DNA of 64,000 nt from the NCBI RefSeq assembly GCF_947581785.1, contig NZ_CANPVO010000020.1, positions 1 through 64,000 of the forward strand. Reading direction: 5' to 3'. A program made the translations under genes and the position numbers. This DNA comes from Candidatus Palauibacter polyketidifaciens (GTDB lineage Bacteria; Gemmatimonadota; Gemmatimonadetes; Palauibacterales; Palauibacteraceae). The notes under the pieces are model-generated. The model was not told the origin of the DNA, did no database searches, and saw only the letters and a program-made list of their open reading frames with translations. Every line of letters begins with the position of its first letter. Position 1 is the first letter of the stretch. Below are positions 51,622 through 63,739 of this stretch, piece after piece.

Positions 51622-53568
51622 CTACCGGCCGCCAGCCCCCGCCCTCTCTTTCGTCGTGATTTCGATCACGCCGTGTTGGGCCTTCTCCCCGTACGTCTCT
51701 GTGGCACGCTCACCTCTCACGATCGTGACATGATCGATGTCGAGTGTGCCGAACTCCGACAGCCCCGCAGCGTCGGAAATCACGCCATCGATGACGATCA
51801 GCGGATCGGGCATGTTCCCCGAACGGGGCACGATCGCGAAGTCCAGCAAGCCATCCCCGTCGACATCGTCGAGGACCGCCGTGCGAACGATGTCTTCGAT
51901 CTCGAGGCCACGGTCGGTAGCGGGCGGCGTTCGGGAGGGGGCTCCTTCCCTCATGCGGCTCATCAGGAAGGATGGGCGGTCAGCCGCCGGAGACTCGCTG
52001 TCCGCAGCGCCGTCCTTCGTCGTGATCTCGATCACGCCGTTCGTGGCGCGCTCGCCGTACAACTCGATGGCCGCGCTCCCCTTGATGACCTCGACGTGGT
52101 CGATATCGAGGGCCCGGAGGTCTGCCATGCTCGTGCCCTCGGATTGAATGACGCCGTCGACGATGACGAGCGGAGCATCCTCATCGGTTGGGGAAGAACT
52201 CCGGGCGGGGGCGGTGTCCGCATCGCTCGCCATCTGGAAGGTGATCCACTGGGCAATCCAGACGTCGGTCGGCTGGTCGCGGTTCATCGCGGGCTCGAAG
52301 CGCATCGTCGCGACGACATCCGCGGCGGCGGCGTCCAGGTCGCTGTTGCCGCTGCTCGTCTTGAGTTCCGTGTTGCGAACCATGCCGGACGTGTCGACGT
52401 ACAGCCACATCTCGACCCGCCCGCCGATGCCCGCTGCCTTCAGGTTCGACGGGTAGGCTTGAACCAGCGCGTTGGATACTTCCGCCGCGTTCTGAAGCAC
52501 CGGAGGCCTGTCGAACGCGATGAAGGACGGCCGGTCGCCGCGCCCGACGGCCTCCTCGTCGGGCACCACCGGGGGCACCCAGTCACTGGCTTCGGAGGGC
52601 GGAGTCACTGTCGCGGTGGGCGCTTCCGGCGCGTTCATGCCGCTCTCGGGCCCGGGGCAGCCGAGTACGAAGAGGACGGCGACCATGGCCAGCCCCGAGG
52701 CGCCGAGCGTGCGGAACAGGCGCATGTTGGCGGGCGGCTCGGTCATGCGGCGCAGGCGTCGCTCCACGGCCGGCTTGCGTTCGGCGAAGGCGGCAGCGGC
52801 GAGCAGCGACCCGGAGACGCGGCTTCCCACCGTGATGAGGGCGTCCGCGTAGTCGCGCGGCGACTCTCCCCGACCGAGCACGCGACGGTCGCAGTCGAAC
52901 TCGATCGCGAGCCGCAGCCGGGACACCTGCCACCACGCGACCGGGTTCCAAGGCATCAGGACGAGCGCCGTAACCGCCGCCGCGAAGAGCCGATGGTCGC
53001 CGGCGCGCTGATGCTCCCGCTCGTGGAGGAAGACGAGGCGGAGCAGTCTGTCGTCGAGTTCGGGGATCCACTTCGGCATCACGACGACCGAGCGCCGGAT
53101 CCCGACGACGGCCGGCCCCCGCTCGTCGGAGAACATGACCGGCGACCCCGCCACGCGGCCCGGCCGCCACGTCCGCATCTCCGACCGCAGCCGGCCGTAG
53201 ACGCGTCCGACGTAGCCGATCATGGCAGCGGCCATGGCCAGCCAGCCCCACCCCAGCACCGCACCCACGGCCACCGCATCGAAACCTCCACCAGCCGCCG
53301 CGGCCGTTGCGGGCAGCTCCGCAGCCGTGGTTGCGGCCGGCAGACCGCTCAACCCGACGCCCGGCGCGACGGACGACACCCCGAAGCCGGGAAGGAGTCC
53401 GGGCGCGAAGAAGGCGACGACGGGCACCGTCACGGATCCGACGATCGCCGCGAACCACGCCCAGCGCACGGGCGTCCGGAAGTGACCCAGCGCCCGCTCC
53501 GAGGCGAAGGCGGCCAGGGCGAGGAGTCCCGAAATCAACAGGCAGTATCCGATCCAGGCGATGACCAT
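51622..53568 (-). CDS. M56 metallopeptidase-TonB-C fusion extended by two plug-like repeats
   Basis: The 648-residue paralog of the next gene has membrane segments in the first 125 residues, H-E-R-E-H at 182-186, F-D-C-D-R-R-V-L at 224-231, a membrane segment at 290-304 ending in a lone lipobox-like F-V-L-G-C, and a TonB-C domain at about 365-447. Two repeats then follow, 466-518 and 589-641. Each reads P-L-V/I-I-D-G-V-I ... L-D-I-D-H-V-x-I-x-K/R-G ... Y-G-E-x-A-x-x-G-V-I-E-I-T-T-K, the turn signature of TonB-receptor plugs. ATG 53568 lies 4 bp past the repressor stop. It should sense or relay envelope signals to the BlaI-type repressor encoded upstream. Confidence 0.87.
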   Translation of the reverse strand: MVIAWIGYCLLISGLLALAAFASERALGHFRTPVRWAWFAAIVGSVTVPVVAFFAPGLLPGFGVSSVAPGVGLSGLPAATTAAELPATAAAAGGGFDAVAVGAVLGWGWLAMAAAMIGYVGRVYGRLRSEMRTWRPGRVAGSPVMFSDERGPAVVGIRRSVVVMPKWIPELDDRLLRLVFLHEREHQRAGDHRLFAAAVTALVLMPWNPVAWWQVSRLRLAIEFDCDRRVLGRGESPRDYADALITVGSRVSGSLLAAAAFAERKPAVERRLRRMTEPPANMRLFRTLGASGLAMVAVLFVLGCPGPESGMNAPEAPTATVTPPSEASDWVPPVVPDEEAVGRGDRPSFIAFDRPPVLQNAAEVSNALVQAYPSNLKAAGIGGRVEMWLYVDTSGMVRNTELKTSSGNSDLDAAAADVVATMRFEPAMNRDQPTDVWIAQWITFQMASDADTAPARSSSPTDEDAPLVIVDGVIQSEGTSMADLRALDIDHVEVIKGSAAIELYGERATNGVIEITTKDGAADSESPAADRPSFLMSRMREGAPSRTPPATDRGLEIEDIVRTAVLDDVDGDGLLDFAIVPRSGNMPDPLIVIDGVISDAAGLSEFGTLDIDHVTIVRGERATETYGEKAQHGVIEITTKERAGAGGR

Positions 53569-53572
53569 GTCC

Positions 53573-53944
53573 CTACTCCTTCGAGCTGAGGCGTTCGTCC
53601 ACCATGCCGCGCAGGTTCTCGAGGTCCTCCTTCGAGAGCGCACGGTCGGAGACGAGGTGCGTGAGCAGCAGTTCGGGCGACCCCTGGAACATCTTCTGAA
53701 CCAGCCGGCGCACCGCGCTCGCGCCGGCGCAGTCGCGCCCCACGAGCGTGTGATAGCGGTAGGCCTTCCCCTCCTGGGTGTGCCCCACGTACCCCTTCTC
53801 CTCCAGCGTCCGGAGGATCGTGAGCACGGTGGTGTAGGCCAGCTCGTCGCCGAGGCGTTCCTGCACCTCCGCGACGGTCGAGGCCCCTCTCTCCCACAGC
53901 ACCGCCATGAGGTCGAGTTCCCGCGTCGTGAACTTGATCTCCAC
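53573..53944 (-). CDS. BlaI/MecI-family repressor
   Basis: The 123-residue winged-helix repressor has the N-terminal T-T-R-E-L-D-L-M-A-V-L-W-E-R-G and Y-T-T-V-L-T-I-L-R-T-L-E-E-K-G-Y-V recognition helices typical of BlaI/MecI/CopY, and a C-terminal dimerisation helix. BlaI proteins dimerise on inverted repeats and are cleaved or displaced when an M56 partner is activated. It precedes the two M56 genes; its stop lies 4 bp before the second start and its 3' end supplies that gene's ribosome site. It probably represses the operon from the inverted repeat at 54072-54085. Confidence 0.92.
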   Translation of the reverse strand: MEIKFTTRELDLMAVLWERGASTVAEVQERLGDELAYTTVLTILRTLEEKGYVGHTQEGKAYRYHTLVGRDCAGASAVRRLVQKMFQGSPELLLTHLVSDRALSKEDLENLRGMVDERLSSKE

Positions 53945-54148: not shown

Positions 54149-57100
54149 CTAAACGCGCAACCAGTTGTGTGCGAAGCGCACGAACCAGGAGGCGCCCGCG
54201 GACCGCAGGAAGCCGCAGGCCTCGCGTTGATCGCCGGGCCGGTTGGGTGGAGCGTAAGTGCCGGCCAACACTCTCAGCTTCTCGGCGCTCAGCCTGTCTA
54301 TCTCGGCGGTATGATCCGCCGCTTCGATGAGACCGGCGATGGTCTTTCGGCGATCGCGAGTCCCCATCGCCGCGGCACGAAACCAGGTCACCAGGTAGAG
54401 GTCGTTCTCCCCCACTACGGCGGAACAGTCCTCCAGCGACTCGAGGCAGGCCTCGACCTCGCGCTGATCGTCGTCGGCCATCGCCAGGAGGCCGGTGAGC
54501 GCCCATGCCTGCGCCGCGAACGGATGCCGACCCGTGTGCCCGGAACCCCGGAGCAACTGCTCCATGTATTCCCGGCAGAGAGCGTAGTCCCCCTTGAAGA
54601 AGACGCACTGCGCCTGATTCAGCAGGGCGTAGGCCCGGGCTTTGGGTGGACTCTCGAGCTCCTCGTCGATCGCGCGGCTGCGGCCGAGTTCATCGAGCGC
54701 CCGTTCGAAGTTGCCGAGTTCGAGCAGCACCGCACCCAGGTTGTTGAGGTTCGCGGATTCGTGTCGGTTCTCGTTGCAGCTCTCCGAGGTGTCTTCCAGC
54801 AACTGGAGGGCGTCATGAAGACGCGCGCCTCGCATGGCCACCCAGAACTCCGCGGCGGTGGCGGCGCGGAGACCCTCGTAGCCGAGCCGGACAAGCCCGT
54901 GACGGCAGGTCTCGAGAACTCGGCGAGCCTCCGCAAGGCCGCTCTGACCTCCAACCCGATGGAAGAGAAGCCGAAACGCGTCGCACCAGACACCTGCGTA
55001 ATCGGCGTCCTCGGGGACGATCCCGCGGAGGCGCGTACGGAACCTCTCGAGACGGGGCTTGCCGTTGCGCCGGGGCGTAGCTTCCGTCGCGTCGAGGACA
55101 GCGGTCTGCATCGCCAGCGCGCGGATTAGCGCCGGGTCGGTCGCATGCCCCAGAGACTCCGCGAGATTCTGACGGTGGAGATCCGTCGCGAGTCGATCTC
55201 CCGCCGCCAACGCCGCCCGCGCCAACGCCAGGTGGACGCGGCTCAGGTCGTTCCCGGTGTCGGCCACGGCGGCAATCTGGTGAAGGACGCTCATGGCCCG
55301 CCGAAACCGTCCCCGCTGCAACTCGGCCTCCGAGAGGAGGAGGCCGGAACGCAGGCGGTCGGCCCCGCCACTGGCATGCTCGAACGCCAACGCCGCCGCC
55401 TCACCCGCTACCGGTGACCGACCCTCCCCCAACGCCCCCTTTGCCACCTCACAGGCCAGACTGAAGGCGCGGGAGGACTCTCCGGCCGCGGCGAGCTCGG
55501 AGGCGGCCGCCGCCCGCGCGCCGAGACCCGCGTTCTCGAGGACTCCGGCCGCCGCCCGGTGTACCTGCGCCCTCTCGTCCGGCGGCAGATTCCACGCGAG
55601 CACGGCACCGGCCAGGGGGCGGCTCAACGTCCATCGATCCGTTTCGGAGTGTAACCAGCCCTTGGCGCGGAGCCCTTCAACAGCACCCCCACTCGAATCT
55701 GCGCCCACGATCGATTCGGCGTGGGCCCGTGCCGGGCGCGTGAGCAGCACCAACGTCGCCGCCAGTCGTCCTTCCCGGAGCGAGAGCGTCTCCAGTTGAT
55801 CGCCGACGAGCGAACGAACCTCGGTGGACCGCTCGTAGGCCAATCGCCCGCCCGATTCCCGGTCGCCGACGGTCGTCGGGCTGAAGTTGTGACGCATCCA
55901 CACCCTGAGGATGGCCCGGGCCAGAGCCGGATTGCCGCCGGAGAGCCTGGCGCATTCAGTCGCCTGTACCGGACTGCAGCCCCTCTCGGTTGCCTGAAGC
56001 GACGCCGCACACGCGTCGGTGGTGAGTGGATCGAAGGTGATCACGAAGTCCACGAGACGCGCGGCTTCTGCCCGCCGAGCCACGTCCGGGTTCGAAAAGC
56101 CGACCACCATGGCGCCCGGGAAATCCGCGGTCCGCATGACTTCATCCACGGTGGTCCAATCCGGAACGTCGGCCCTGATGACGATGAGTCGGGTCTTTCG
56201 AGGGTATCGGCCCAGCTCCGAGGCCAGATTCTCGCGCGTCCCCGCAAGGTCCGGCGGAAGCCACTGCACCGACCCTCCACCGCTGGATACGAATCTGGCG
56301 AAGTCCCGCACGACGTCTTCCCGTCCGAGACCGCGCTCGCCGGCCAGAGCCAACCGTATGGGCACCGCGCGGGACGAACGGAGAGCGAGGCTCAGCTGGC
56401 GGAACTCTCCTCCTCGATCCGACATCCGCGGTTCCCGGCGCTCGCGGACGACCAGGGGTGCGGCGTCAAGCTGGTTCCGAGCCCACGCCGCCGTCTCCGT
56501 CAGCTCCGTGGCGCTGGCGACCCAACCGCATTTCTCCAGCGCTCGGTAGTAGGAAAGGGCGGAGGCGTAGTCGCCCTTCATGCACAAGGCACGCATGAGG
56601 GTGCTGTGCGCGTGTTCGTCGAACTCGTTCTGCCTCACGAGCCGGAGCGCAGCCAGACACGTCCGGTCCCAGTCGCCGCTCTCCTCGGCGGCTTGTTGCA
56701 CGGTCTTGAGCGCCATGGCGACCAGGACGCGACAACGCTCCCGTTCGCCGTCCAGCCAGCGCTCGAACTCGTCCGCTCCCAGGTTGAGCAGACCGGGGGC
56801 GAAGTCTCCCCGGTACAGATCGATGACGGTCTCGTGGTCCCTGGCCTGGAACGCCCGTTCGAATGCATCGAGTTCGTATGTGATCCGCTGCGGCACGAGT
56901 CGGACCGTGTTGGCGTCCACGGTGATCACCGGACCCATGGACGACCGGATGTCGTAGAGTGCCTGGCTGAGCGAGTGTCGCGCTTTTCTGTCGCGACTGT
57001 CCCACAGGAGATCGGCGAGCGTCTCCCGCATGTGGACGGTTCCGGGGTGTGCAACGAGATACAGCAGGAGACCCGTGTGCTTCCGTGACCGCAGCGGGAT

Positions 57101-57157
57101 CCTTGCCCCGCGTGGGTCCGAGGTCGCGACCTCGCCGAAGCAGCGCAGCGTAAGCAT
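54149..57157 (-). CDS. Large SARP-type transcriptional regulator (BTAD domain)
   Basis: The 1002-residue regulator has an N-terminal OmpR-like winged helix (about 1-90; R-S-R-K-H-T-G-L-L-L-Y-L-V). A BTAD bacterial transcriptional activation domain follows (about 95-240; F-E-R-W-L-D-G-E-R-E-R-C and A-L-x-Y-Y-R-A-L-E-K). The middle, where related regulators carry an AAA/NB-ARC ATPase, begins R-L-A-L-A-G-E-R-G-L-G-R-E-D-V, but lacks the G-K-T/S of Walker A. The remaining helical repeats (about 600-950) resemble TPR-like scaffolds. Its likely role is a promoter-specific activator sensing a protein or metabolite. The start follows AAAGGAAC. An AT-rich promoter lies upstream. Target genes are unknown. 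Confidence 0.87.
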   Translation of the reverse strand: MLTLRCFGEVATSDPRGARIPLRSRKHTGLLLYLVAHPGTVHMRETLADLLWDSRDRKARHSLSQALYDIRSSMGPVITVDANTVRLVPQRITYELDAFERAFQARDHETVIDLYRGDFAPGLLNLGADEFERWLDGERERCRVLVAMALKTVQQAAEESGDWDRTCLAALRLVRQNEFDEHAHSTLMRALCMKGDYASALSYYRALEKCGWVASATELTETAAWARNQLDAAPLVVRERREPRMSDRGGEFRQLSLALRSSRAVPIRLALAGERGLGREDVVRDFARFVSSGGGSVQWLPPDLAGTRENLASELGRYPRKTRLIVIRADVPDWTTVDEVMRTADFPGAMVVGFSNPDVARRAEAARLVDFVITFDPLTTDACAASLQATERGCSPVQATECARLSGGNPALARAILRVWMRHNFSPTTVGDRESGGRLAYERSTEVRSLVGDQLETLSLREGRLAATLVLLTRPARAHAESIVGADSSGGAVEGLRAKGWLHSETDRWTLSRPLAGAVLAWNLPPDERAQVHRAAAGVLENAGLGARAAAASELAAAGESSRAFSLACEVAKGALGEGRSPVAGEAAALAFEHASGGADRLRSGLLLSEAELQRGRFRRAMSVLHQIAAVADTGNDLSRVHLALARAALAAGDRLATDLHRQNLAESLGHATDPALIRALAMQTAVLDATEATPRRNGKPRLERFRTRLRGIVPEDADYAGVWCDAFRLLFHRVGGQSGLAEARRVLETCRHGLVRLGYEGLRAATAAEFWVAMRGARLHDALQLLEDTSESCNENRHESANLNNLGAVLLELGNFERALDELGRSRAIDEELESPPKARAYALLNQAQCVFFKGDYALCREYMEQLLRGSGHTGRHPFAAQAWALTGLLAMADDDQREVEACLESLEDCSAVVGENDLYLVTWFRAAAMGTRDRRKTIAGLIEAADHTAEIDRLSAEKLRVLAGTYAPPNRPGDQREACGFLRSAGASWFVRFAHNWLRV

Positions 57158-57332: not shown

Positions 57333-57620
57333 TTACCGGAGGGTGTCGAGCGCTCTCAGGATCGCCGCCTCGATCTCGTCCAACAGCTCCGGCCAGTCGA
57401 GCGTTGCGGTCTTCGTCACCGTGATGAAGTTCTCGACGATGAGCAGGGCCCGGACTCCATCGACCTCGAACAGGCGCGCCGCCAGCGGGTCTTCGGCGGC
57501 GGACTCGGGATCGAAATAGCTCCGGCTCCCCTTGCCGGGGATGTCGCGGTCCAGGACGAACTTCGCCGCGTGCGGGTTCGGGGTCCCCTCAACCGTGATC
57601 TGGATATCGGAGTCTGTCAT
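57333..57620 (-). CDS. Nfu/NifU N-terminal domain protein
   Basis: The 95-residue protein has the Nfu_N (PF08712-like) sequence E-G-T-P-N-P-H-A-A-K-F-V-L, a structural core often attached to Fe-S scaffold proteins, followed by F-E-V-D-G-V-R-A-L-L-I-V-E-N-F-I-T-V-T-K. The C-terminal CxxC NifU domain that carries the cluster is absent, so it may assist another scaffold or act alone. ATG 57620 begins 9 residues before homology. It is divergent from the PIG-L operon (132 bp gap). No Fe-S genes are adjacent. Confidence 0.87.
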   Translation of the reverse strand: MTDSDIQITVEGTPNPHAAKFVLDRDIPGKGSRSYFDPESAAEDPLAARLFEVDGVRALLIVENFITVTKTATLDWPELLDEIEAAILRALDTLR

Positions 57621-57752
57621 CGGGTCCCGAGTTGAAGCCGTGGATGCGATGCGTTTGAGTATCGGCGGGCTGGGCTCGCTCGCAAGGCCTCCTTGCCCGG
57701 ACTTCCGCCCGCGGACACGATGCGAACGCGGACCCACGGACCTGGATGATCC

Positions 57753-60524
57753 ATGATCGCTCACAGGCAACCCGGACTCGGCGCCGTCCTTCCGGTGGCC
57801 CTGGCGGCCCTGGCGACCCTCGCGGGGGTTGCGGCGGCGGTCGGGCAATCGGGCCCCGCCGTCCGGGGGCCGGATCGCGTCCTCGCCTTCCCCGCCCCGG
57901 TCGGAGAGGAACGGCTGGAGGTGGACCGCGGGGCGATGGGAGCCTGGCACCGCATCCGCAAACTCGCCACGACGGCGAGCCTGCTCCACGTCACCGCGCA
58001 CCCCGACGACGAACACGCCGGCATGCTCACGCTGGCCAGCCGGGGGTGGGGCGCCCGGACCGCCCTCCTCAGCCTCAACCGCGGCGAGGCCGGCGCCAAT
58101 GCGATCGGCCCCGAACTTTTTGACGGCCTCGGGCTGATCCGGACCCGCGAACTCGTCCTCTCGGGCCGCTACTACGGCCTCGACGACCTCTACTTCACGA
58201 CGGCGGTCGACTACGGCTACTCGAAGTCGGTGGACGAAGCCTTCCGAAGCTGGGACCGCGAGGCAGTGCTCGAGGACATGGTCCGTGTCATCCGCCTCAA
58301 CCGCCCGCTCGTCGTCGTGAGCCGCTTCCACGGGTCGGCCCGCGATGGACACGGGCACCACCACGCGGCGGGGCTGCTGACGCCGGAAGCGGTGGCGGCG
58401 GCCGCGGATCCGACGCGCTTCCCCCGCCAGATCGCCGAAGAGGGACTCCGGCCCTGGCGGGTCCTCCGCACCTTCCGCGGGGGGCTTCGCGTCGACGAGC
58501 CGCACGATGTGGAGGTGAATGCGACCGGGATGAGCCCGTGGCTCGGCGATACGTACCAGCGCTGGGCCAGCCGGGGACTCGGCCTCCAGCGTTCCCAGAC
58601 GGCGGGGCGCGTGCGAACGGGCGGCGGCCGCCATCTCTACGGACGCCTCGACGGGACCGGCGGCCGGGCGACGGGGGTCGAGGGTTCGTTCTTCGCGGGA
58701 CTCGACACGACGCTGAGCGGACTCCCCGCACTCCTGGGCGAGGCGGCCTCACCCGAGGTGGATTCGCTGCTCGCCGAACTGGACCGCCTCGTCGGCGCCG
58801 TGACGTCGGCTTTCGACTTCCGAGACCCGGAGCGCGCCGCGGCCGACCTCGCTCGGGGGCTGGGTTGGGTCCGGGCGGTGGCCGCCGCGCTCCCGGACGC
58901 TCCGGAGACGCGATTTCATCTCTCGCTGAAGGAACGACAGTTCGAGGACGCGATTCTGGCGGCGACCGGAACCACGGTGTCCGCGAGACTCTCGGGCGGC
59001 CCAGCCGGTCGGGGCGAGGCCGTCCTGACGCCGGGCCAGCCCGCCAACGTTCGCCTCCGGGTCGAGCCGCCGGAGGCCGCGGAGGGGGACGGGGTCACGA
59101 CCTGGATCGAGAGCCGCGGCGGCGAGACGCTGGCGTCGTCGAACGGGGGCGCCCGTCTGCCGGACGGCTCGGCGCAGCCGCTCGAGATCCGGGTTCCGGC
59201 CACGCCCGCCGCACCGTACTTCGGACGCGGGGACGTGTCGGAGAACCACTACCAGGTATCCGACTCGGCGGACCTTCATCTCCCGTGGCGGCGGCCGGCG
59301 CTCGCAGCCGGTGTCGAACTCGCCGTCGGCGGGCATGTCATCGCGCATACCGTTCCGGTGACGGCGCCGGTCTCGCGTCTGCCCTACGGTTCCGTGACAC
59401 GGAGGGTGGAGACCCTGCCCGCTCTCTCCGTTTCGCTGGCGCCGGGCGTGGGCATCGTGCCCGTCGACGGCGCGGGTGGCGACGTCGACTCGCCCGGGGA
59501 CGGCGGCGCGGCGCGCATTGAATTGCGTGCGCGGGTCGTGGCGAACGCGCCGCCGCTCTCCGCCACCGTTCATCTCGAGCTGCCGGAGGGGTGGACGACG
59601 GTCCCCGGCACTCCCGCCACCGTGGAGCACGACTTCCGCGGCCCGGGCGAGGTCGTGGACGCGGCGTTCCTCATCGCGCCCCCAGCCGGGTGGCGGGGCG
59701 AGGCGGAGATCGCGGCGGTGGCCCGCGCGCGGGGAACGGACCATCGCCGCGGCTATACGACGATCGAGCACCGGGACCTGCCGCTTGCGCGGCTCTGGCG
59801 CCCCGCGCGGACCACGGTGCGGTCGGTGGGCGTCGCCCGACTCGACGGCGTCCGGGTCGGCTACGTGATGGGGGTCGGCGATGAAGTCCCGGCCGGGATC
59901 GAGGCGCTCGGCGCCACCGTCGAACTCCTGGACGAAGCCGCCCTCGCGGAACTGGATCCGGCCGCCGGCGCGGGTTCCGGCGACGAGGCGGGGTTCCACG
60001 CGATCGTCGTGGGCACCCGCGCCTACGCCGTGCGCGAAGACCTTGTCGAATACAACCCGCGCCTGCTGGAGTACGCCCGCCGGGGCGGGCATCTCGTCGT
60101 CCTCTACCAGACACAGGAATACGTGCCGTCGGCGATGGCGCCGTATCCGGCCTCCCTCCCCCGGGGAGCGGAAGAAGTGTCGGAGGAGGACGCGCCCGTC
60201 CGCCTGCTCCGACCCGACCACCTCTTGATGGCCGCGCCCAATCGCCTCGCCGATGCCGATTTCGACGGATGGATCGAGCAGCGCGGCTCCAAGTTCTTCT
60301 CCGACTGGGATCCGGCCTACACGCCGCTCGTGGAGACGCACGACACCGGCCAGGCTCCGCAGGAGGGCGTGTGGCTCACCGCTCCGGTGGGCGACGGGCG
60401 CTATACCTATCTCGCGCTCGCCCTCCACCGGCAACTGCCGTACGGAGTGCCGGGCGCCTACCGCATCCTCTCCAACGTCCTCACCCCTCGCGGGGCATCG
60501 GCGCCCGCTCCCGGAGACCGCTGA
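57753..60524 (+). CDS. Exported PIG-L/LmbE-type N-deacetylase, large form
   Basis: The 923-residue exported protein has a signal peptide (about 11-32). The LmbE/PIG-L zinc site is A-H-P-D-D-E-H-A-G at 82-90, with G-H-G-H-H-H-A-A-G (about residues 204-212) supplying the third ligand. These enzymes remove N-acetyl groups from amino sugars or glycolipids. The rest holds beta-sandwich segments (about 430-690) and a C-terminal glutamine-amidotransferase-like fold (V-G-Y-V-M-G-V-G-D-E; A-I-V-V-G-T-R-A-Y; R-R-G-G-H-L-V-V-L-Y-Q-T) without a visible catalytic Cys. The combination matches long periplasmic PIG-L proteins of unknown specificity. It is followed within 3 nt by a symporter and glycosidase, suggesting a glycan-utilisation operon. 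Confidence 0.88.
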   Translation: MIAHRQPGLGAVLPVALAALATLAGVAAAVGQSGPAVRGPDRVLAFPAPVGEERLEVDRGAMGAWHRIRKLATTASLLHVTAHPDDEHAGMLTLASRGWGARTALLSLNRGEAGANAIGPELFDGLGLIRTRELVLSGRYYGLDDLYFTTAVDYGYSKSVDEAFRSWDREAVLEDMVRVIRLNRPLVVVSRFHGSARDGHGHHHAAGLLTPEAVAAAADPTRFPRQIAEEGLRPWRVLRTFRGGLRVDEPHDVEVNATGMSPWLGDTYQRWASRGLGLQRSQTAGRVRTGGGRHLYGRLDGTGGRATGVEGSFFAGLDTTLSGLPALLGEAASPEVDSLLAELDRLVGAVTSAFDFRDPERAAADLARGLGWVRAVAAALPDAPETRFHLSLKERQFEDAILAATGTTVSARLSGGPAGRGEAVLTPGQPANVRLRVEPPEAAEGDGVTTWIESRGGETLASSNGGARLPDGSAQPLEIRVPATPAAPYFGRGDVSENHYQVSDSADLHLPWRRPALAAGVELAVGGHVIAHTVPVTAPVSRLPYGSVTRRVETLPALSVSLAPGVGIVPVDGAGGDVDSPGDGGAARIELRARVVANAPPLSATVHLELPEGWTTVPGTPATVEHDFRGPGEVVDAAFLIAPPAGWRGEAEIAAVARARGTDHRRGYTTIEHRDLPLARLWRPARTTVRSVGVARLDGVRVGYVMGVGDEVPAGIEALGATVELLDEAALAELDPAAGAGSGDEAGFHAIVVGTRAYAVREDLVEYNPRLLEYARRGGHLVVLYQTQEYVPSAMAPYPASLPRGAEEVSEEDAPVRLLRPDHLLMAAPNRLADADFDGWIEQRGSKFFSDWDPAYTPLVETHDTGQAPQEGVWLTAPVGDGRYTYLALALHRQLPYGVPGAYRILSNVLTPRGASAPAPGDR

Positions 60525-60527
60525 CGG

Positions 60528-62330
60528 GTGGCGCTGACCACGCTCGACTGGGTCGTCGTCTGCATCTACGGCGCGATCGTCCTCGCCATCGGGTTCGGGT
60601 TCGCCAGGCGGGCCAGCGGCAGCGTCGAGGATTACTTCATCGCGGGCCGCTCGCTGCCCTGGTGGCTCGCGGGCACGTCCATCGCGGCCACTTGGTTCGC
60701 GACGGACGCCCCGCTCGCCACGGCCGCCCTCGTGCGCCGGCAGGGCGTGTACGGCAACTGGCTCTGGTGGTACGAGGCGGCGGGGATCCTCATGCTGACC
60801 TTCTTCTACGCGCGTCTGTGGCGGCGCGCGGGCGTCCTCACCGACGCCGAGGTCATCGAGATCCGCTACGGCGGGGCGCCGGCACGGGCGCTGCGGGGCT
60901 TTTCGGCCGTCTACCAGGGCCTGCTCAAGAACGCCGTCGTCATGGGCTGGGTCATGCTCGCGATGGTGAAGTTCAGCCGGGTGCTCCTCGGCTGGGACCC
61001 CGCCGTGACCCTGACCGTCTGCGTCGGACTCGCGCTGGCCTACACGGTCGCATCGGGACTCTGGGGCGTCGTCGTGACCGACCTCCTCCAGTTCGTCGCC
61101 GGCATGCTCGGGGCGATCACCCTGGCGGGAATCGTACTCACGCGCTTCGGCGGTCCGGCGGCGATGGCGGACGCCGTGCGCGAGATGCCGCAGGCGCCGC
61201 CGGGCGCCCTCGACCTCGTGCCGTCCGCCGGGACCGCATCCTCGCTCGAGATTGTCTCCTTCCTGTGCCTCATCGGCATCCTGTGGCTGAGGAGCGGACA
61301 GGGCGACGGCTACGTGGCCCAGCGCCTGTTCGCGACACGGGACGAGCGTCAGGCCGTGAAGGCCTCGCTGTGGTTCGCCTTCGCGGGAACCGTGCTCCTC
61401 ACCTGGCCCTGGATCGTCGTCGGCCTCGGGTCGCTCCTCGTCTTCCCGCCGACGGCCATGGACCCGGCGCTCGCCGCGGATCCCGAACTCGCCTACCCGA
61501 TGATGATCCGGGAACTCATGCCGGCCGGGCTCCGGGGGCTGATGGTCGCCACCTTTTTGGCCGCGTTCATGAGCACGATGGACACGCACCTGTGCTGGGG
61601 CGCGTCGTACATGGTGAACGATGTCTACCGCCGCTTCCTGAGGAAGGATCGCTCCGAGCGGCACTACGTCGCGGCGTCGCGGGTCATGGTCGTGCTGCTC
61701 GCGGTGGTCGCGGCGGGCGTGGCCTGGCAGATGGAGTCGATCCGGAGGGGCTGGATCTACATCATCGAACTCACGGCGGGGGTCGCGCTCGTCTGGCTCC
61801 TGCGCTGGTACTGGTGGCGGGTGAACGCGTGGGCCGAGATCGCCGCGATGGCGGGGTCGGTGCTGCTGGCCAACGGCCGGCACCTGCTCGGCCTCATCGA
61901 GCCCGCCCTGCCCGCGGCGGCGATCCGGGCCGCGGACGGCTTCTACGCGCCGGAGATGGACCTCATCCGGGCGGTGGTCATCCTCATCGCCTGCACCGCG
62001 CTCTGGCTCGCCGTCGTCCTCGTCACCCGGCCCGAGTCGGATGACGTGCTGGACCGTTTCTACCGGCGTGTCCACCCCGGCGGCTGGTGGCACCGCGTGG
62101 CGGAACGCACCGGCGTCCGCTCGTCCGACCCGCCCGCGAGCCGCATGTGGCCGGGCTTCCTCCTCGGCGCAGTCTTCGTCTACGCGAGCCTGCTCGGCAT
62201 CGGATACCTGCTCACGGGCCGCGCCGGCGTGGGCGCGCTCCTGCTCGCCGTGTCGGTGGCCGCGGGCGCGATCTCCGTCCGCATCGCGCACGCCGACACG
62301 GCCCCGTCGCCCTCGGGGACTTCGCCATGA
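60528..62330 (+). CDS. Sodium:solute symporter (SSS family)
   Basis: The 600-residue transporter has about thirteen to fifteen membrane segments. The start is a GTG 3 nt after the deacetylase. SSS hallmarks include the first helix with V-E-D-Y-F-I-A-G-R-S-L-P-W-W and the helix with L-A-A-F-M-S-T-M-D-T-H, the sodium-site serines/threonines. It imports a sugar, sugar acid or related solute with sodium. The C-terminal hydrophobic extension after about 480 is longer than the SSS minimum. It couples by ATGA overlap to the glycosidase, so the imported solute is probably a glycoside released outside. Confidence 0.9.
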   Translation: MALTTLDWVVVCIYGAIVLAIGFGFARRASGSVEDYFIAGRSLPWWLAGTSIAATWFATDAPLATAALVRRQGVYGNWLWWYEAAGILMLTFFYARLWRRAGVLTDAEVIEIRYGGAPARALRGFSAVYQGLLKNAVVMGWVMLAMVKFSRVLLGWDPAVTLTVCVGLALAYTVASGLWGVVVTDLLQFVAGMLGAITLAGIVLTRFGGPAAMADAVREMPQAPPGALDLVPSAGTASSLEIVSFLCLIGILWLRSGQGDGYVAQRLFATRDERQAVKASLWFAFAGTVLLTWPWIVVGLGSLLVFPPTAMDPALAADPELAYPMMIRELMPAGLRGLMVATFLAAFMSTMDTHLCWGASYMVNDVYRRFLRKDRSERHYVAASRVMVVLLAVVAAGVAWQMESIRRGWIYIIELTAGVALVWLLRWYWWRVNAWAEIAAMAGSVLLANGRHLLGLIEPALPAAAIRAADGFYAPEMDLIRAVVILIACTALWLAVVLVTRPESDDVLDRFYRRVHPGGWWHRVAERTGVRSSDPPASRMWPGFLLGAVFVYASLLGIGYLLTGRAGVGALLLAVSVAAGAISVRIAHADTAPSPSGTSP

Positions 62331-63739
62331 ACGACCCGCTCAGGATCGTCCTCGTCGGGGCCGGCAGCCGCGAGTTCGGCCCTGCCTCCATCCGCGACGT
62401 CCTCCTCAGCGATCCCCTGTGCGATCGGGACCTGAGCCTGGTCCTCGTCGACATCGACCCGTCGGAACTGCCCCGCGCGCGGGCGTACGCGGAAGCGGTG
62501 GCGGAGCGGCTGGGCCGGCGCGTCGCCGTATCCGCGACCACGGACATCGAGACGGCGCTCCCCGGCGCCCGCGCGGTCGTCCTCGCGATCGAGATCGACC
62601 GCTACTTCTACTGGGCGCAGGACTTCCACGTCCCCCGCGCGTTCGGCTCCTCCCAGATCTACGGGGAGAACGGCGGGCCGGGCGGCCTCTTCCACGCCCT
62701 GCGCAACATGCGTCCGGCGGTGGAGTTGGCGCGGGCGATGGAGGCCCACTGTCCCGAGGCGTGGCTCGTCAACTACACGAACCCGCTCACGAAGCTGTGC
62801 GAAGCCCAGAGCCGGCTCTCGTCCGTGCGCGTCGTCGGACTCTGCCACGGCGTCTTCCACGGGATGGAACAGATGGCGCGCCTCCTGGAGCTGCCGGTCG
62901 AGCGCCTCGACGCCCGGGCGAGCGGGCTCAACCACTTCAGCTGGTTCGAGTCCGTGCGCGACCGCGAGACGGGCGAGGACCTCTACCCGAGGCTGCGGCG
63001 CCGCGAGCGGGAGGCGCATTGGCTCCACGACTGGGACGAGATCGCGCTGAGCCGGATCCTGTTCCGGGTCTTCGGCCGCTATCCCAGCCCCGGGGCAAAC
63101 CATATCGGCGAGTACCTGGGATGGGGACGGGAATTCCTCGGCAGCAGCCTCCTCCAGTTCTTCTACGACCCCGTGCACGGCGCGCCGTGGGAGAGGGGGG
63201 AGACCCCGACCTGGCTCTACAATCTCGGCGAGAACCCGACGGATGTGCCGGCCTTTCCGGAGTCCCCGCTGCCCCGGGTGCGGGACGAGGACAACGGCCG
63301 CAACCGTGGGGACGACATCGGGGCCGGCGGAGAACTCACGTCGTCAGGAGATCTCGCTCCGTCCGGCGAGCTGGCGGTGCCCCTTCTCGAGGGCGTGCTG
63401 TGCGGCGTGGACACCCACCTCGACGCAGTGAACGTCCCCAATGAGGGCTACGTCCCCGGCCTGCCGGACGGCGCCGTGGTGGAAGTCCCGGCCCGCGCCG
63501 ACGCGAACGGGCTGCATCCCGCCGCCATGGAACCGCTTCCCGAGGGGATCCTCGGACTCCTCCGGACCCAGACTTCGATCAACCGCCTCCTCGTCGACGC
63601 CTTCGCCGACGGCGCCCGCGGGACGCTGCTCCAGGCGCTGCTCCTCGATCCCACGACGGACTCCTACCGCACCGCGGTCCACACCATCAACGAGATGTTC
63701 CGGCTCCAGGCGGACGTGCTGCCCGAGATGGAGTGGTAG
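62327..63739 (+). CDS. NAD-dependent family 4 glycosidase
   Basis: This 470-residue GH4 enzyme uses NAD and a divalent metal for redox-assisted hydrolysis of alpha- or beta-glycosides. Seen are the N-terminal dinucleotide motif V-L-V-G-A-G-S-R-E-F-G-P, the N-Y-T-N-P-L motif, the metal-binding Cys-His of G-L-C-H-G, and G-L-N-H-F-S-W. A longer Asp/Gly-rich insert (about 320-345) with G-E-L-T-S-S-G-D-L-A-P-S-G-E-L duplication is unusual. It starts in the symporter stop (ATGA). Substrate may be a 6-phosphoglycoside, a galacturonide or a simple glycoside; the paired symporter suggests an unphosphorylated sugar. It is cytoplasmic. Confidence 0.9.
   Translation: MNDPLRIVLVGAGSREFGPASIRDVLLSDPLCDRDLSLVLVDIDPSELPRARAYAEAVAERLGRRVAVSATTDIETALPGARAVVLAIEIDRYFYWAQDFHVPRAFGSSQIYGENGGPGGLFHALRNMRPAVELARAMEAHCPEAWLVNYTNPLTKLCEAQSRLSSVRVVGLCHGVFHGMEQMARLLELPVERLDARASGLNHFSWFESVRDRETGEDLYPRLRRREREAHWLHDWDEIALSRILFRVFGRYPSPGANHIGEYLGWGREFLGSSLLQFFYDPVHGAPWERGETPTWLYNLGENPTDVPAFPESPLPRVRDEDNGRNRGDDIGAGGELTSSGDLAPSGELAVPLLEGVLCGVDTHLDAVNVPNEGYVPGLPDGAVVEVPARADANGLHPAAMEPLPEGILGLLRTQTSINRLLVDAFADGARGTLLQALLLDPTTDSYRTAVHTINEMFRLQADVLPEMEW

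Follow-up and report, generated by a model that had tools for sequence, protein, structure and literature searches.

The 64,000-nucleotide (nt) stretch of DNA analysed here (the window; positions 1-64,000 of contig NZ_CANPVO010000020.1, forward strand, assembly GCF_947581785.1) belongs to Candidatus Palauibacter polyketidifaciens (Gemmatimonadota; Gemmatimonadetes; Palauibacterales; Palauibacteraceae). At positions 57753-63739 it carries three closely spaced genes for a deacetylase of the PIG-L/LmbE family, a sodium:solute symporter (SSF) and an NAD-dependent glycosidase of glycoside hydrolase family 4 (GH4). Comparison with other genomes established this trio as an inherited functional unit, the linkage of its genes being far beyond chance. 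With moderate confidence we read it as a three-step amino-sugar uptake operon, by which an N-acetylated substrate would be deacetylated outside the cell, imported as the amine and cleaved inside, the released sugar then being phosphorylated and deaminated. The features of the operon are as follows:

57753-63739, + strand: three-gene operon of deacetylase, symporter and GH4 (open reading frames and Pfam)
57753-60524, + strand: predicted exported deacetylase of the PIG-L/LmbE family, 923 amino acids, ATG start, with beta domains and, at the C-terminus, a ThuA-like domain (Pfam, model)
57984-58391, + strand: PIG-L catalytic domain, residues 78-213, with H83-P-D85-D86 and H200/H203 (Pfam, alignment)
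59433-59834, + strand: NEW3/NPCBM-associated-like beta domain, residues about 561-694 (PF10633 below cut-off, structural model)
59844-60497, + strand: ThuA-like/class-I-amidotransferase-like domain without Cys, residues 698-915 (structural model)
60528-62330, + strand: sodium:solute symporter (SSF), GTG start, 600 amino acids (Pfam)
62327-63739, + strand: GH4 NAD-dependent glycosidase, 470 amino acids, no signal peptide (Pfam)
62327-62330, + strand: ATGA shared by the symporter stop and the GH4 start (sequence)
62843-62854, + strand: CHGV motif of GH4, residues 173-176 (alignment)

The deacetylase and symporter genes are separated by 3 nt (60525-60527), and the ATGA is the sole true gene overlap in the operon; the joins given in the first-pass annotation of the window were thus borne out by the coordinates and by Pfam matches for all three genes. 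For the distribution of the trio, close matches in 395 Gemmatimonadota genomes were counted at identities of at least 59% for GH4, at least 64% for the symporter and at least 50% for the deacetylase (pieces included). Seven of the 46 genomes with GH4 matches had only distant ones (31-41% identical) and were excluded from the count of 39, and PIG-L matches below about 42% were treated as paralogues; the close-match lists are complete, and the paralogue counts are lower bounds. GH4 was found in 39 genomes, the symporter in 39 and the deacetylase in 36, with GH4 and symporter together in 38 and all three in 35. The GH4 and symporter genes were located on one contig in 38/38 cases, about 170 nt apart at most according to coordinates read by eye, and the deacetylase lay no more than 200 nt from the symporter in 34 of 36 genomes. 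The two exceptions were G294, with these two genes on different contigs, and G096, where they are about 2.3 kb apart (in the named locus L099 a gene occupies this space). Among the matches listed, paralogues of the deacetylase (about 34-41% identical) and of the symporter (at most 48%) are widespread and form a different set. Within the genus, 13 of 17 genomes contain both a close deacetylase and GH4. The 36 named loci fetched by GH4 comprised 28 with all three genes, 3 with symporter and GH4, of which two are truncated by the end of the contig, and 5 with GH4 alone. The closest named relatives of the window include several Candidatus Palauibacter genomes. Moreover, the pairwise identities of the three proteins covary (Spearman 0.91-0.94, 171 pairs), to which shared descent contributes.

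The search of other genomes, which had been named in the first-pass annotation as a check, thus recovered the complete trio in Gemmatimonadota and, rearranged or split, in Rhodothermales as well. In Rhodothermia, the class of the Rhodothermales genome G401 (244 genomes), GH4 was present in 11 genomes, the deacetylase in 19 and both in 8, against 0.9 expected if they were independent (Fisher 4e-8, the genomes themselves not being independent). Loci L109-L111 show the order symporter, deacetylase, with GH4 farther on; in G401 the deacetylase and symporter pair is located about 40 kb from GH4, and in G402 on another contig. L109 was 64%, 61% and 51% identical to the window in GH4, symporter and deacetylase, respectively, and other Gemmatimonadota members were 58-61%, 65% and 48-50% identical. 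The Rhodothermales locus is therefore as close to the window as these members of its own phylum, which suggests that the trio has moved by horizontal transfer. The separation of the pair from GH4 in G401 and G402, together with a PIG-L paralogue in the genus that has its own, different SSF neighbour, would also fit a loose catabolic cluster, in which PIG-L makes up a unit with the symporter and GH4 is a neighbour with an unrelated substrate. This explanation is very unlikely given that 38 of 39 GH4 genomes have a matching symporter within about 170 nt on the same contig and that the identities of all three proteins covary, even with the contribution of shared descent.

Three loci labelled Gammaproteobacteria (L097, L098 and L119) were not counted as a further phylum. 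Their trio genes are nearly the same as those of a Gemmatimonadota genome, and L097 gave match values identical to those of L082, a locus from the window's own class; the bins are therefore probably mislabelled. The Palauibacter genome G025 contains two trio copies (C29, locus L071, and C6, locus L015), one of them about 63-84% identical to that of the window; in view of the 7% contamination of this record, the second copy may be foreign. No published description of the trio was found in the openly licensed literature searched.

By family and catalytic residues the first protein is a PIG-L/LmbE-like deacetylase, its activity being predicted. The Pfam scan matched PIG-L (PF02585) with 53.7 bits (cut-off 28.2, E 3.9e-14), and H83-P-D85-D86 and H200/H203 were invariant across 21 aligned orthologues, L110 (two stops in frame), L087, L091, L092, L105 and the partial loci having been omitted from the alignment. 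In the excerpt of PMC4101496 the LmbE-like motif is defined as HXDD plus H, ligands 2 and 3 being separated by 97-148 residues, and the 117 positions from D86 to H203 lie within this range. The sole named PIG-L models that matched were MshB, Mca and BshB, with 22.6, 18.8 and 18.2 bits versus NCBIfam cut-offs of 224, 277 and 182.5, none of which was reached. The PIG-L domain was assigned from sequence alone, the structure search scarcely covering residues 1-407. A hydrophobic signal-like stretch was present at the N-terminus of the deacetylase and of the six orthologues compared and was lacking in GH4, so the deacetylase is probably located in the periplasm or outside, as had been claimed at first, and GH4 in the cytoplasm. 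Long PIG-L proteins of this kind are usually annotated merely as PIG-L family deacetylase. In the genus a PIG-L paralogue (about 38% identical) with a different SSF symporter downstream was observed (L137:5775-10344, + strand) in seven flanked genomes.

The C-terminal part of the deacetylase was analysed with a model built from 21 sequences, which had moderate confidence (mean pLDDT, the predicted local distance difference test, 61.7). A first Foldseek listing, mostly with query TM-scores near 0.1, was not used, and a second structural comparison resolved the C-terminal domain. Residues 698-915 matched the STM3548 cytoplasmic protein 2gk3 (Z 15.1) and ThuA-like 1t0b (Z 14.3) over 188-189 residues at 3.3 Å, followed more weakly by the GH42 enzyme 5xb7 (Z 12.4) and the galacto-N-biose/lacto-N-biose phosphorylase 2zut (Z 11.3), with rows of other folds at Z of about 10. 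The C-terminus thus models as a ThuA/class-I-amidotransferase-like fold. No Cys occurs anywhere in the 923 amino acids of the deacetylase, and the catalytic Cys of active class-I glutamine amidotransferases is accordingly missing; the initial description of an amidotransferase-like fold without catalytic Cys agrees with both results. For the preceding beta domain, PF10633 scored 21.3 bits in the window protein, under the cut-off of 24.4, and above it in the orthologues L109 and L117.

Mean conservation in the 21 orthologues was 0.82 for the ThuA-like domain (91/218 positions invariant), 0.87 for the PIG-L region (114/233 invariant) and 0.60-0.65 for the stretches between domains. Across both domains, 46 positions are invariant in the trio-form deacetylase yet different in 14 paralogues, for example H193, N183 and R178 in the PIG-L part and Q786, E842, K847, Q867 and H892 in the ThuA-like part. 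Since the ThuA-like domain is conserved nearly like the catalytic domain, its role probably goes beyond passive binding, and we infer that it takes part in substrate binding or in the active site. The term binding module, proposed at first, may undersell a domain so strongly conserved.

The second protein matched SSF (PF00474) with 149.7 bits (cut-off 22.8, E 1.5e-43); the NCBIfam sss model gave 154 bits, its cut-off of 184 not being reached. Among solved structures it comes closest to SGLT-type sodium/glucose cotransporters, and A-F-M-S-T at residues 346-350 aligns with A-I-V-S-S of vSGLT, a stretch which we take to be the Na2 site. For this symporter a sugar-type substrate and Na+ coupling are predicted.

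The third protein matched PF02056 (114 bits, E 8e-33) and PF11975 (125.9 bits, E 2.9e-36), both above cut-off, and carries the N-terminal NAD-binding GxGS as GAGS at 11-14. C173 was invariant in 25 aligned GH4 proteins and H174 almost so; the motifs are CHGV at 173-176 and NHIGEY at 258-263. The motif comparison covered MelA, ChbF, one LplD alignment and phospho-GH4 structures. Escherichia coli MelA has CHSV and HFAEY (HxxEY) and LplD has CHEV and HLAEF (HxxEF), ChbF has a CN motif without HxxEY, and the phospho-GH4 structures compared have C[N/D]xP. The window GH4 has CHGV where ChbF and the solved phospho-GH4 enzymes have a motif of C[N/D]xP type. The difference between the CHxV/HxxE and C[N/D]xP classes tracks specificity for sugars or phospho-sugars. 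By motif, GH4 therefore appears to belong to the unphosphorylated-sugar class, like MelA and LplD, which would suit a symporter that does not phosphorylate; a GH4 limited to phosphorylated sugars, named at the outset as incompatible with the proposal, is not what the motifs point to. A single-sequence search gave GlvA (122.5), 6dux (110.4), LplD (107.2) and AglA (106.5) without a clear nearest relative, so the class rests on motifs and not on rank. The single-protein model of GH4 (mean pLDDT 37) was not used, and no GH4 relative was found in a viral-contig scan.

The best NCBIfam models for GH4 were the MelA-type alpha-galactosidase NF011657 with 262.9 bits (cut-off 486, not reached) and AglA with 131.8, and with the nearest named models this far below cut-off the protein is assigned to a subfamily of its own. 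These two ranks, the SGLT-type relatives of the symporter and the presence of symporter and GH4 without PIG-L in G015, G082, G549, G550 and G556 are also compatible with an ordinary GH4 (alpha-galactosidase, alpha-glucosidase or alpha-galacturonidase) acting on a neutral or uronic glycoside, with the symporter importing a disaccharide and PIG-L only cleaving an acetyl or other acyl amide elsewhere on the same host glycan. We regard this alternative as unlikely in view of the strong co-inheritance with the deacetylase and of amino-sugar-6-phosphate isomerase genes beside the GH4 of two relatives.

Those genes are part of the context that favours an amino-sugar operon. In L171 (GH4 70% and symporter 64% identical) a PF01182 gene is located 82 nt upstream of the symporter on the same strand. 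Its product scored best with galactosamine-6-phosphate isomerase (221.4 bits, below the cut-off of 271), ahead of glucosamine-6-phosphate deaminase (142.6 and 101.9) and 6-phosphogluconolactonase (54.2). The Paenibacillus locus L121 (GH4 43%) has, in this order, genes for a ROK-type regulator, a NagB/AgaI-like protein, a ROK kinase and GH4, with a 4-nt overlap between kinase and GH4. The NagB/AgaI-like protein scored 128 versus 121 bits, leaving galactosamine versus glucosamine undecided (6-phosphogluconolactonase 41), and the kinase gene beside GH4 implies phosphorylation after cleavage. The genome of the window itself encodes a NagB-PIG-L fusion of 637 amino acids (L134:8120-10033, - strand, G000:C6; PRK02122, 863 bits), and on the question of galactosamine versus glucosamine that genome offers only this NagB-type gene. 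Additionally, the nagB score was above cut-off in 14 of the 17 genomes of the genus, and every one of the 13 trio genomes is among them. The context also includes SusC/SusD, with which GH4 stands in 6 of 11 Rhodothermia GH4 genomes.

In the pathway thus favoured, the exported PIG-L/ThuA-like protein would deacetylate a small N-acetylhexosaminide in the periplasm, and the SSF symporter would import the resulting free-amine glycoside with Na+. The cytoplasmic GH4 would then cut the unphosphorylated amine glycoside, with NAD+ transiently oxidising C3 before the elimination. The hexosamine set free would next be phosphorylated and then lose its amino group through an enzyme of NagB/AgaI type, for which the NagB-PIG-L fusion elsewhere in the Palauibacter genome and the NagB/AgaI-type genes beside GH4 in the two outside relatives are candidates. 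The order first proposed, deacetylation outside, import and hydrolysis inside, is kept as the best reading; the "glycan" of that proposal is probably a small glycoside, because SSF symporters carry small solutes. The chemistry of GH4 enzymes, as described in the excerpts of PMC7676230 and PMC10628242, comprises oxidation of C3 by NAD+, elimination of the aglycone, addition of water and reduction.

Several observations weigh against this pathway. Among 41 distinct GH4 genes whose flanks reached at least 3 kb in both directions, just 2 had an isomerase neighbour; their loci, L171 and L121, are both outside Gemmatimonadota, and neither shows a PIG-L gene of the trio kind. The galactosamine hint conflicts with the LmbE-like enzymes characterised so far, which according to the excerpt of PMC4101496 act on N-acetylglucosamine cores. 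NagA was above cut-off in none of the 17 genus genomes, but this absence supports the pathway weakly, since the PIG-L half of the NagB fusion may explain it. A profile search of solved structures placed a 6-phospho-beta-glucosidase first (323.6 bits), a rank that we discount because the 25 GH4 rows of the profile include ChbF and MelA, which pull it. No matching deacetylase was found in 4 of 39 Gemmatimonadota GH4 genomes (G015, G082, G268 and G397, the last perhaps owing to a contig end) and in 3 of 11 Rhodothermia GH4 genomes (G549, G550 and G556), so GH4 can work without the deacetylase. Conversely, 11 of 19 Rhodothermia deacetylase genomes have no GH4. In 5 of these 11 (G640, G641, G642, G644 and G645) a BCCT transporter gene follows the deacetylase, so that the product of the deacetylase need not be a GH4 substrate; the loci of G537, G539, G561 and G562 have neither BCCT nor GH4. 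Two of the BCCT proteins were scanned (496.6 and 493.1 bits), and the others were assigned by tblastn at 79% or more. BCCT transporters are carriers of charged amines, and such a partner agrees with an amine product, yet one that can go elsewhere. The BCCT-paired long PIG-L protein is 57-58% identical to that of the window (L179:6052-10392, - strand, L180, L181 and L186; G641 by flank).

The pairing with BCCT would also fit small charged amines. PIG-L could act on a small amide metabolite such as a thiol-conjugate-type pseudodisaccharide (mycothiol- or bacillithiol-like), with the symporter importing the amine and GH4 cutting an alpha-glucosaminide such as glucosamine-malate or glucosamine-inositol; the only named PIG-L models that matched (18-23 bits) are those of MshB, Mca and BshB, whose substrates are alpha-glycosides of glucosamine or N-acetylglucosamine. 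The scores amount to about one tenth of the cut-offs, and GH4 stands with SusC/SusD in 6 of 11 Rhodothermia GH4 genomes (L109, L114, L115, L173, L175 and L176), which points to larger glycans, so that a small amide metabolite is an improbable substrate. Beside GH4 and divergently transcribed, a gene for a PD40/beta-propeller protein of about 850 amino acids was observed in the Rhodothermia loci L109 (6585-9149, - strand), L110, L111, L115, L173, L175 and L176 (63-73% identical), and a distant relative of it (27%) near the pair in L072/L113.

Among known systems, the E. coli chb operon (ChbG, phosphotransferase system (PTS) and ChbF) is similar in having a deacetylase that acts before a GH4 in need of a free amine, the deacetylation-first order of the trio being proposed from gene linkage. 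In the excerpts of PMC12791066 and PMC9402603, diacetylchitobiose phosphate needs deacetylation by ChbG before ChbF cuts. Deacetylation ahead of cleavage would make sense in the trio as well, because ChbF accepts its substrate only once the deacetylase has exposed the amine. The chb system differs in that ChbG, of the YdjC family rather than PIG-L, also acts on the phosphorylated sugar, uptake by the PTS involves phosphorylation and ChbF has the CN motif without HxxEY, whereas the trio combines a predicted exported PIG-L deacetylase, SSF uptake and a GH4 with MelA/LplD-type motifs. E. coli MelA-MelB resembles the trio in placing a CHxV/HxxEY GH4 beside a cation symporter, annotated as melibiose:H+/Na+/Li+ symporter; MelB belongs to a transporter family other than SSF, MelA is 27% identical to the window GH4 and the melAB neighbourhood examined contains no deacetylase. 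With MshB, BshB and diacetylchitobiose deacetylase the window protein shares the HXDD+H residues and, as a prediction, the deacetylation of N-acetylglucosamine-core compounds described for those enzymes (PMC4101496); it differs in its ThuA-like C-terminal domain, its export signal and scores far below the cut-offs of the NCBIfam equivalogs. Flavonifractor plautii has two sequential steps in which the N-acetyl group is removed by an N-acetylgalactosamine (GalNAc) deacetylase and the aminosugar is cleaved by a galactosaminidase afterwards (PMC10981661, in excerpt). This pair differs in its enzyme families and has no symporter unit and no NAD chemistry. The Flavonifractor galactosaminidase belongs to GH36.

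A bolder version of the amino-sugar proposal is put forward only tentatively. The trio would form a PTS-independent amino-sugar route, GH4 being an NAD-dependent hexosaminidase for free-amine glucosaminides or galactosaminides and the ThuA-like domain, its amidotransferase Cys lost, contributing to the active site or providing a second site for sugar; the unit might move between unrelated bacteria that feed on aminoglycans of host or matrix. By their isolate labels, many trio-bearing bacteria belong to sponge- and coral-linked sets.

Upstream of the operon, the gap 57621-57752 would hold its promoter. A short divergent open reading frame (57333-57620, - strand) resembles by eye an Nfu N-terminal-type protein, and a BTAD/TPR regulator of 1002 amino acids (54149-57157, - strand) was kept only within the genus among the loci compared. 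Farther upstream, a fusion of a BlaR1/M56 peptidase with TonB C-terminal and Plug-like stretches (51622-53643, - strand) adjoins a BlaI-type repressor (53573-53944, - strand); a second, similar-looking open reading frame is located just past this fusion in L066 (241-1569).

The trio, which the first-pass annotation outlined well, is real and conserved. If the proposed pathway is true, it would provide a substrate class and a pathway for a GH4 subfamily that falls well short of the cut-offs of the NCBIfam models nearest to it, as well as a role for the long PIG-L protein. The logic of exposing the amine and then cutting would have arisen again, with an exported PIG-L protein, sodium symport and a redox glycosidase replacing ChbG, PTS and phospho-GH4. 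A deacetylase and an aminohexosidase are the activity pair that trims GalNAc from blood-group A glycans (PMC10981661, in excerpt), and a new pair of this kind could be useful for such trimming. Palauibacterales are reported, in the part of PMC10469786 consulted, from sponges, marine sediment and saline soil, with carbohydrate-active enzymes that differ among these habitats; for the uncultured Palauibacter the pathway would predict a concrete nutrient.

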